DNA from: Fimbriimonas ginsengisoli Gsoil 348
Lineage (GTDB): Bacteria; Armatimonadota; Fimbriimonadia; Fimbriimonadales; Fimbriimonadaceae
DNA: 64,000 nucleotides
NCBI RefSeq assembly: GCF_000724625.1
Contig: NZ_CP007139.1
Span: forward strand, 806,001-870,000
Reading direction: 5' to 3'
Position numbers and translations under genes: made by a program. A model generated the notes under the pieces. That model searched no databases. It had not been told where the DNA came from and saw nothing but the letters and a program-made list of their open reading frames with translations. How positions within the stretch are numbered: the stretch's first letter is position 1; each line of letters begins with the position of its first letter. Positions 12,521 to 13,771 of the stretch are shown in pieces.

Positions 12521-12526
12521 TACAAC
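12521..12526 (+). promoter_or_regulatory. TAnnnT-type -10 box before the P-II gene
   Basis: TACAAC (followed by T) lies 6 bases before the GTG start at 12533, and no Shine-Dalgarno sequence is present. This fits a leaderless transcript. Confidence 0.35.
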
Positions 12527-12532
12527 TGGGCC

Positions 12533-12871
12533 GTGATCCGCGTCGTCTGCTTTATCCGTCCCCACCGGCTCGAGCCGGTAAAGTCGGCCATTTCGGCGCT
12601 GGGGATTAGCGGCCTCAGCGTCTCCGATGTGCGCGGTACCGGCAACTCCCCCGAGCGAGCCGACTTTTTCGGAGGTGACGAAGGAGTCGTCGCGCTCCCG
12701 ATCCGGGCTCGCCTCGAAGTCGTCGTTCCCGACGACATGGTCGACACCGTCACCGACGCGATCGTGGAAACCGCCCAGACCGGCGAGCCCGGCGACGGAA
12801 AGATCTTTCTCGAAAGAGTCATCGACGCCGTACGTATTCGAACGGAGGAGCGAGGCGAAGAGGCTGTCTGA
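12533..12871 (+). CDS. P-II family nitrogen regulatory protein, atypical T-loop
   Basis: The protein is 112 residues long, starting at GTG, and aligns to E. coli GlnB without gaps. The B-loop TGEPGDGKIF (residues 83-92, with Lys90) and C-loop RIRTEER (Arg101, Arg103) are intact, so ATP/ADP binding is expected. The T-loop differs strongly: position 51, the uridylylated Tyr in enterobacteria, is Gly, and Tyr46 is Phe. It therefore cannot be modified by GlnD in the usual way. P-II proteins sense ATP/ADP and 2-oxoglutarate and control partners such as AmtB. No amtB or glnA is adjacent; the upstream gene encodes an unrelated membrane protein. Confidence 0.9.
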   Translation: MIRVVCFIRPHRLEPVKSAISALGISGLSVSDVRGTGNSPERADFFGGDEGVVALPIRARLEVVVPDDMVDTVTDAIVETAQTGEPGDGKIFLERVIDAVRIRTEERGEEAV

Positions 12872-12967
12872 GACCGCTCCCGCCGAACGCTACCAAACGC
12901 ACCCTTTTGGCGGCGCGAACTAATTATCGGGCGGGTACATTCCAATAAGCAGAGTAATGGTGCTCTG

Positions 12968-13087
12968 AAAAACCTAGGCTTAATGCCGCGAGAGCGGCAG
13001 CGGGGGACCCGTTATCTGGGGTGAATCTCGAGTGATCGAGTAGGACGTTCTTGGTCCGAATCCGACAGCTAACCTCGCCGGCCGAAT
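12968..13087 (+). promoter_or_regulatory. Cyclic di-AMP riboswitch (ydaO/yuaA type)
   Basis: The conserved blocks of the ydaO aptamer occur in order with correct spacing: GGCTTAATGCC, GCGGGGGACCC, TGGGGTGAATC, a GGAC/GTCC helix, then CCGAATCCGACAGCTAACCTCG. In B. subtilis this RNA binds cyclic di-AMP and turns off genes for cell-wall remodelling, potassium or osmolyte transport. Downstream comes a GTCGCA/TGCGAC hairpin (13098-13113), then GAGGAGGT and the start codon at 13134. I see no intrinsic terminator between aptamer and gene, so control may act on translation. Confidence 0.92.
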
Positions 13088-13133
13088 GCAAGAACGGGTC
13101 GCAACGATGCGACTAGAGGAGGTTACGTAACGA

Positions 13134-13418
13134 ATGCTCACGGAATTTGAGGTGAGGCGCCGGATGGAGTGCATCCAAACGTCGCCGATGGCCCCCCTGC
13201 GCAAGGCGCGCATGCTACTACGGCTAGGGAGGTCCCTAACCCCGCAAGTCCGTTCACTCATCCAAGCGAAGACGCAGATCGCGCAGACGGCCGACCGCAA
13301 GTCGTCCGCCTGTCTCCGGCGAATGGCTACCTCCGCAGAAACCCTGCGCGAGGACCTGAGGGACGCCGCGTTCGACGCTCTTCACACGACCGACCCTTCC
13401 GGAAACTTCCGGAATTGA
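13134..13418 (+). CDS. Small unknown protein under a cyclic di-AMP riboswitch
   Basis: This 94-residue basic protein starts at ATG with a strong GAGGAGG site at good spacing. It has no signal peptide or membrane segment. The N-terminal half is helical and arginine-rich (FEVRRRMECIQT, LRKARMLLRLGRSL). I recognise no family. Usual ydaO targets are wall hydrolases or transporters, so an orphan small gene is notable. It is followed by a hairpin at 13424 and then a convergent gene, so it is the only gene of its transcript. The strong ribosome site and the riboswitch make translation likely. Confidence 0.65.
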   Translation: MLTEFEVRRRMECIQTSPMAPLRKARMLLRLGRSLTPQVRSLIQAKTQIAQTADRKSSACLRRMATSAETLREDLRDAAFDALHTTDPSGNFRN

Positions 13419-13423
13419 AGGAA

Positions 13424-13451
13424 ATGCCGGCGCTACCGTTAGCGCCGGCAT
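13424..13451. terminator. Hairpin between convergent genes
   Basis: ATGCCGGCGCT pairs perfectly with AGCGCCGGCAT over ACCGTT (11-base stem). It lacks a clear T-run on either side, but its position between two gene ends suggests a bidirectional transcription stop. Confidence 0.55.
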
Positions 13452-13462
13452 CCTGGTCAAGG

Positions 13463-13771
13463 TTACTTCAACCGTTTGAGGCTGACCTGATACGGCCCTA
13501 TCCCAAACGCGGATAGCATGATCGGCCCGACGATCCCTTTTGAAACGTTTGCCACCTGAAACCGAACGATCTCGCCTTCGGCGAGTTCAAAGGTTTCCTT
13601 CTTGCTGTAGAGCTGGTTGGTGATCTTCAGCGTATGCTCGCCCGCGGGTAGCTCCGACTCGTAAGATTTTTCGAACTGCAGGTCGGTCACGATCTGGCCG
13701 TCGAGCTGAATCTCGAGTCCACGCATTTTGATGTCCTTGGGAGAATTGCGAGTAACGATTAGCCTGGACAT
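13463..13771 (-). CDS. Small beta-rich protein, PEGA-like, hypothetical
   Basis: About 102 residues from the ATG at 13771, preceded by AAGG at 9 bases. A TTG 21 bases upstream could extend it, without a good ribosome site. The pattern EIQLDGQIVTDL followed by SELPAGEHTLKI is typical of PEGA-type carbohydrate-binding or surface repeats, which alternate short strands around a PAGxH turn. No signal peptide is evident. It is downstream of the M15-like gene on the same strand with a 29-base gap, so the two may be co-transcribed. Confidence 0.65.
   Translation of the reverse strand: MSRLIVTRNSPKDIKMRGLEIQLDGQIVTDLQFEKSYESELPAGEHTLKITNQLYSKKETFELAEGEIVRFQVANVSKGIVGPIMLSAFGIGPYQVSLKRLK

Follow-up and report, generated by a model that had tools for sequence, protein, structure and literature searches.

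The window analysed here is a 64,000-nucleotide (nt) stretch of the Fimbriimonas ginsengisoli Gsoil 348 genome (G000), and coordinates are positions in this window unless prefixed by a genome or locus label. On its forward strand, where all window features described below lie unless stated otherwise, positions 12967-13097 match the cyclic di-AMP (c-di-AMP; ydaO/yuaA) riboswitch family RF00379 over model positions 1-134 of 134 (cmscan score 89.7 bits, with a gathering threshold of 38; E 1.1e-19), in agreement with an earlier note, made from the letters alone, that had recognized a ydaO-type aptamer here. All consensus pairs are standard in the RF00379 alignment, and the closing helices and conserved junction blocks are intact: the 5' strand of the outer closing helix, GGCU (12977-12980), is partnered by GGCC (13080-13083), and that of the inner closing helix, GCGGGG (13000-13005), by CCUCGC (13073-13078). 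ydaO aptamers have a pseudoknot between a loop and the 3' tail; the loop GUUCUUG at 13047-13053 and the tail CAAGAAC at 13089-13095, which are exactly complementary, are the candidate partners here, and loop-tail pairing of a similar kind was seen on inspection of the leader sequences of relatives. In each sequence test that we ran, the RNA is an ordinary RF00379 member, and from its family we infer that it binds c-di-AMP. The 5.23-Mb single-contig genome encodes one diadenylate cyclase domain (DAC, PF02457) and contains one further RF00379 aptamer.

The next gene start is the ATG at 13134, 36 nt past the aptamer end, which opens a 94-residue frame (13134-13418, TGA stop). The strong ribosome site that the earlier note had described is a Shine-Dalgarno (SD) sequence, AGAGGAGG, at 13115-13122, 11 nt upstream of the ATG; it belongs to an SD region, AGAGGAGGUUA, at 13115-13125, in which GAGGUUA (13119-13125) is the complement of UAACCUC. 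Abutting the SD on its 5' side is a 7-bp linker hairpin (GGUCGCA-ACGA-UGCGACU), computed at 13097-13114 and thus placed to within one base by the note (13098-13113). A terminator scan of 12700-13600 found no intrinsic terminator, and hence none between the aptamer and the gene, again as the note had stated. The gene is alone in its unit, the next downstream frame lying convergently on the opposite strand; between the two genes, an 11-bp hairpin (13425-13450) is terminator-like, has no U-run and falls below the threshold of the scan. Upstream, the gene for a canonical P-II protein (PF00543, E 6e-20; 12524-12868) ends ~100 nt before the aptamer and is not a conserved neighbour.

A search of 291 genomes of the phylum Armatimonadota, made with the single protein first and then with alignments, recovered 34 family members in 31 genomes, confined to two families of one order. 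The 28 members that were aligned share 22-60% identity with the window protein, contain no internal stops and keep a pattern resembling MLTEFEVRR...P..KAR.LL. Conservation of the downstream frame in aptamer-bearing relatives, on which the earlier note had staked its reading, is borne out: an aptamer lies directly upstream, on the same strand, of 28 of the 34 members. One other member is a tandem copy behind an aptamer-led family gene (G031), and five have no aptamer (G005, G017, G025:C6, G032 and G068). When the six homologues for which no aptamer was listed were checked for a hidden or decayed one upstream, it was absent for these five, and an initially unlisted aptamer (54 bits) was recovered upstream of the member in G012:C63. 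Tandem copies of the family behind one aptamer were seen in G025 and G031 (L026 and L067). In the surroundings of 30 homologous loci, none of the proteins flanking the window gene (an M16 peptidase, a Bax1-I protein, P-II and the two downstream) was found. This leaves the aptamer as the one window neighbour shown to be kept and gives no sign of a wider conserved operon involving P-II, Bax1-I or the genes downstream. A pattern search for viral homologues found none. By these comparisons, the 94-residue open reading frame is a real, conserved gene.

The protein, which the first reading could not place, has no above-threshold match in Pfam, NCBIfam, PHROG or PADLOC; in particular, no Pfam or NCBIfam match above cut-off links it to the families known from c-di-AMP regulons (K+ and osmolyte transporters and wall hydrolases). 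A profile search of PDB sequences gave chance coiled-coil matches only, with neither Tad1 nor Acb2, phage proteins that bind cyclic dinucleotides (PMC12043709, PMC12657218), among them. The AlphaFold2 model, made with 28 aligned members, is a confident small helical bundle (mean pLDDT 88.8; helices 4-16, 21-33, 36-49 and 55-84) and indicates a soluble protein. Foldseek returned no PDB match to it at E <= 0.001, and the VIA-align Z scores near 10 obtained with mite allergens, UvsY, HscB and CorA fall in a range that, by the tool's own warning, helical bundles commonly reach. Only generic helical bundles, and neither Tad1 nor Acb2, appear among the matches listed by the two programs. Naming the protein by family or fold was therefore dropped.

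Together, these results support, with a probability of about 0.8, a c-di-AMP riboswitch that controls the 94-residue protein gene, probably by translation; this estimate concerns the pairing and the level of control and excludes the direction of the switch and the role of the protein. Translational control is the likeliest mode, as the leader shows no sign of a terminator and would scarcely have space for one, and nlpC of C. glutamicum offers a precedent, its riboswitch likewise having no canonical terminator and probably acting on translation (PMC9960051). The earlier note had also suggested translational control, but its suggestion that the linker hairpin exerts it is not supported as it stands. 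The hairpin stops just 5' of the SD and leaves it uncovered, so it is not by itself a switch that hides the ribosome site. Most same-family leaders have a hairpin of unlike sequence at the equivalent place, with the SD directly after it, and since these sequences differ greatly the hairpin is kept by structure.

If anything, the anti-SD candidate is UAACCUC (13070-13076), in the 3' strand of the aptamer, rather than the linker hairpin. In both the minimum free energy and the centroid fold of 12967-13160, UAACCUC pairs with 13119-13125, and the pairing probability in the free ensemble of the fold model is 0.59. The SD variant GAGGUUR occurs at 9 of 26 family starts versus 3 of the 110 other gene starts of the GAGG type (Fisher p 1.4e-5, which is optimistically small because the leaders are mutually related). 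The authors of the nlpC study also invoke an anti-SD stretch, CTCC, inside the riboswitch (PMC9960051). In the mechanism that we propose, the mRNA of the one-gene unit would begin with the aptamer and carry the 94-residue helical protein as its sole gene. In the absence of ligand, UAACCUC would pair with GAGGUUA and the SD would be hidden; binding of c-di-AMP would close the aptamer (13000-13005 with 13073-13078, 12977-12980 with 13080-13083), drawing the UAACCUC strand into it, altering ribosome access to the SD ~30-40 nt downstream and freeing the SD. Because the UAACCUC:GAGGUUA pairing and the closed aptamer are mutually exclusive, an ON switch would result.

We consider ON and OFF about equally likely. 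An OFF switch, to which we give slightly short of even odds, would use the same riboswitch and gene, with c-di-AMP binding hiding the SD and the protein being made at low c-di-AMP; it contests the direction only, not the riboswitch-gene pair. OFF is the direction described for characterised c-di-AMP riboswitches, among them the terminator-free, translational nlpC switch (PMC9960051), and folding the G000 leader with a closed aptamer lets the SD pair with the aptamer's 5' portion (0.37). Against this, permutation tests of the complementarity between the 5' flank and the SD detected no covariation (p 0.98 and 0.92), for which reason an anti-SD in the aptamer 5' flank was rejected. Nor did we find a conserved element by which the closed state could sequester the SD, which the linker hairpin leaves open. 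In a thermodynamic model of 27 leaders, mean SD accessibility was 0.37 with the aptamer free and 0.48 with it closed, in folding models that take in neither the pseudoknot nor the ligand. Leaders with shuffled linkers served as the control, and the gain did not significantly exceed theirs (p 0.16), so thermodynamics does not settle the direction, and an ON/OFF call on that basis was dropped.

The earlier note had raised the possibility of a new c-di-AMP effector; whichever way the riboswitch turns, it suggests only that synthesis of the 94-residue protein answers to c-di-AMP. The protein most likely belongs to the c-di-AMP response of the cell, because the aptamer-gene pair is kept across two Armatimonadota families. 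From its size, its modelled fold and its company in the regulon, it is probably an intracellular accessory protein of the c-di-AMP or osmotic response that binds another molecule, rather than a transporter or wall hydrolase.

That company emerged from 149 aptamer places examined in the genomes carrying them. A second small helical group, most members of which have a PFMEFSS-like tail, stands behind 11 aptamers (L171, L161, L163, L165, L174, L178, L090, L100, L134, L121 and L162). A third, MSFVSQIMRKASIVERS, stands behind seven (L085, L119, L128, L137, L175, L176 and L179), and a Tad1-type gene then follows in 7/7. Tails such as DDFSATGA or FPKFSS terminate several Tad1-type proteins. The three small-protein groups are alike in helical-bundle build only; a common origin was set aside, as profile comparison was weak (E 0.0018 and 0.0075; probabilities 15 and 5). 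The 94-residue protein is one of several small helical families that the order Fimbriimonadales keeps under c-di-AMP riboswitches.

Tad1-type genes were found in 15 aptamer operons of relatives (L078, L085, L119, L121, L128, L137, L143, L153, L175, L176, L179, L030, L047, L095 and L098), usually second, after the gene for a small helical protein; the Tad1-type query matched PDB Tad1 with an E of 2e-8 (phmmer). Tad1-like genes are present in 67 of the 151 genomes searched, the window's genome among them, where the one copy (G000:C1 about 4990411-4990761; L211 1912-2262) has no aptamer found nearby. By analogy with the phage proteins, c-di-AMP buffering would be a reasonable hypothesis for the role of the regulon. 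The 94-residue protein itself might be a host c-di-AMP-binding buffer or sponge, or a partner of a Tad1-like protein, providing feedback on free c-di-AMP. The binding of cyclic dinucleotides by phage Tad1 and Acb2 and the 15 Tad1-type operons lend themselves to this idea, as does the presence of one strong (L078) and two weak (L143, L153) members of the 94-residue family in such operons; the window gene, by contrast, forms a unit by itself, its protein could not be related to Tad1 or Acb2 by sequence or through the listed folds, and we consider the idea unlikely. More speculative still is a composite picture in which a Fimbriimonadales regulon would be built on small helical proteins and c-di-AMP-binding host Tad1-like proteins, with the 94-residue protein in the buffering module and UAACCUC as the anti-SD of an ON-type switch.

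Transcriptional control, through Rho or a weak attenuator, would be in keeping with the clear intrinsic terminators behind other c-di-AMP aptamers of the lineage. No terminator lies between this aptamer and its gene in the scan of 12700-13600, however, and the SD follows the linker hairpin directly in most same-family leaders, which makes control at this level quite improbable. We regard it as very improbable that the 94-residue frame is there by chance and that the aptamer serves a different purpose, for example by working as a stand-alone RNA: many other aptamers in these genomes seem to end in noncoding terminated RNA, but this frame is conserved in 34 places, mostly in the same close order of aptamer, SD and start codon, and the next downstream gene is on the other strand.

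The second aptamer of the genome (G000:C1 4755761-4755896; RNA at about 1270-1636 of L001, minus strand, also L212) is followed by ~180 nt, CACCUCCUGUUGAGC, an intrinsic terminator and then hisB. The same arrangement, CACCUCC plus terminator, was seen after at least 28 of the 113 aptamers that do not belong to the 94-residue family; hisB lies downstream in only 11 of these, so the arrangement may represent a stand-alone RNA that responds to c-di-AMP and carries an anti-SD stretch. Other aptamer-led genes of the Armatimonadota (L040, L177, L097, L144, L148, L166, L167, L028 and L156) include one for a STAS-domain protein (L040, by Pfam) and others that by eye are opine-dehydrogenase-like, SbcD-like, MscS-like or NlpC/P60-like.

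The usual targets of known c-di-AMP riboswitches are transporters and cell-wall enzymes. The ydaO/kimA riboswitch of B. subtilis is of the same aptamer class as the window RNA, which is full length with all consensus helices, but there c-di-AMP induces a terminator and the target is a K+ importer, whereas the window leader has no terminator and precedes a small soluble protein without a family match. The nlpC switch, which resembles the window leader in its likely mode of control, is OFF and acts on a cell-wall peptidase (PMC9960051), whereas the target here is an orphan helical protein. The difference lies in the target: a lineage-specific orphan small protein behind a short, terminator-free leader, and not a transporter or wall enzyme. 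The literature searched, which did not extend to the gene lists of Nelson et al. 2013, contained no report of such a pairing of aptamer and orphan protein. It also contained no paper that combines Fimbriimonas and c-di-AMP, so the c-di-AMP biology of the group seems unstudied. The orphan small-protein families behind these aptamers supply specific genes for study, each with c-di-AMP as a built-in readout. The operons with Tad1-like genes open to experiment the question of whether the sponge fold serves bacteria themselves, and not phages alone, in handling a housekeeping nucleotide.
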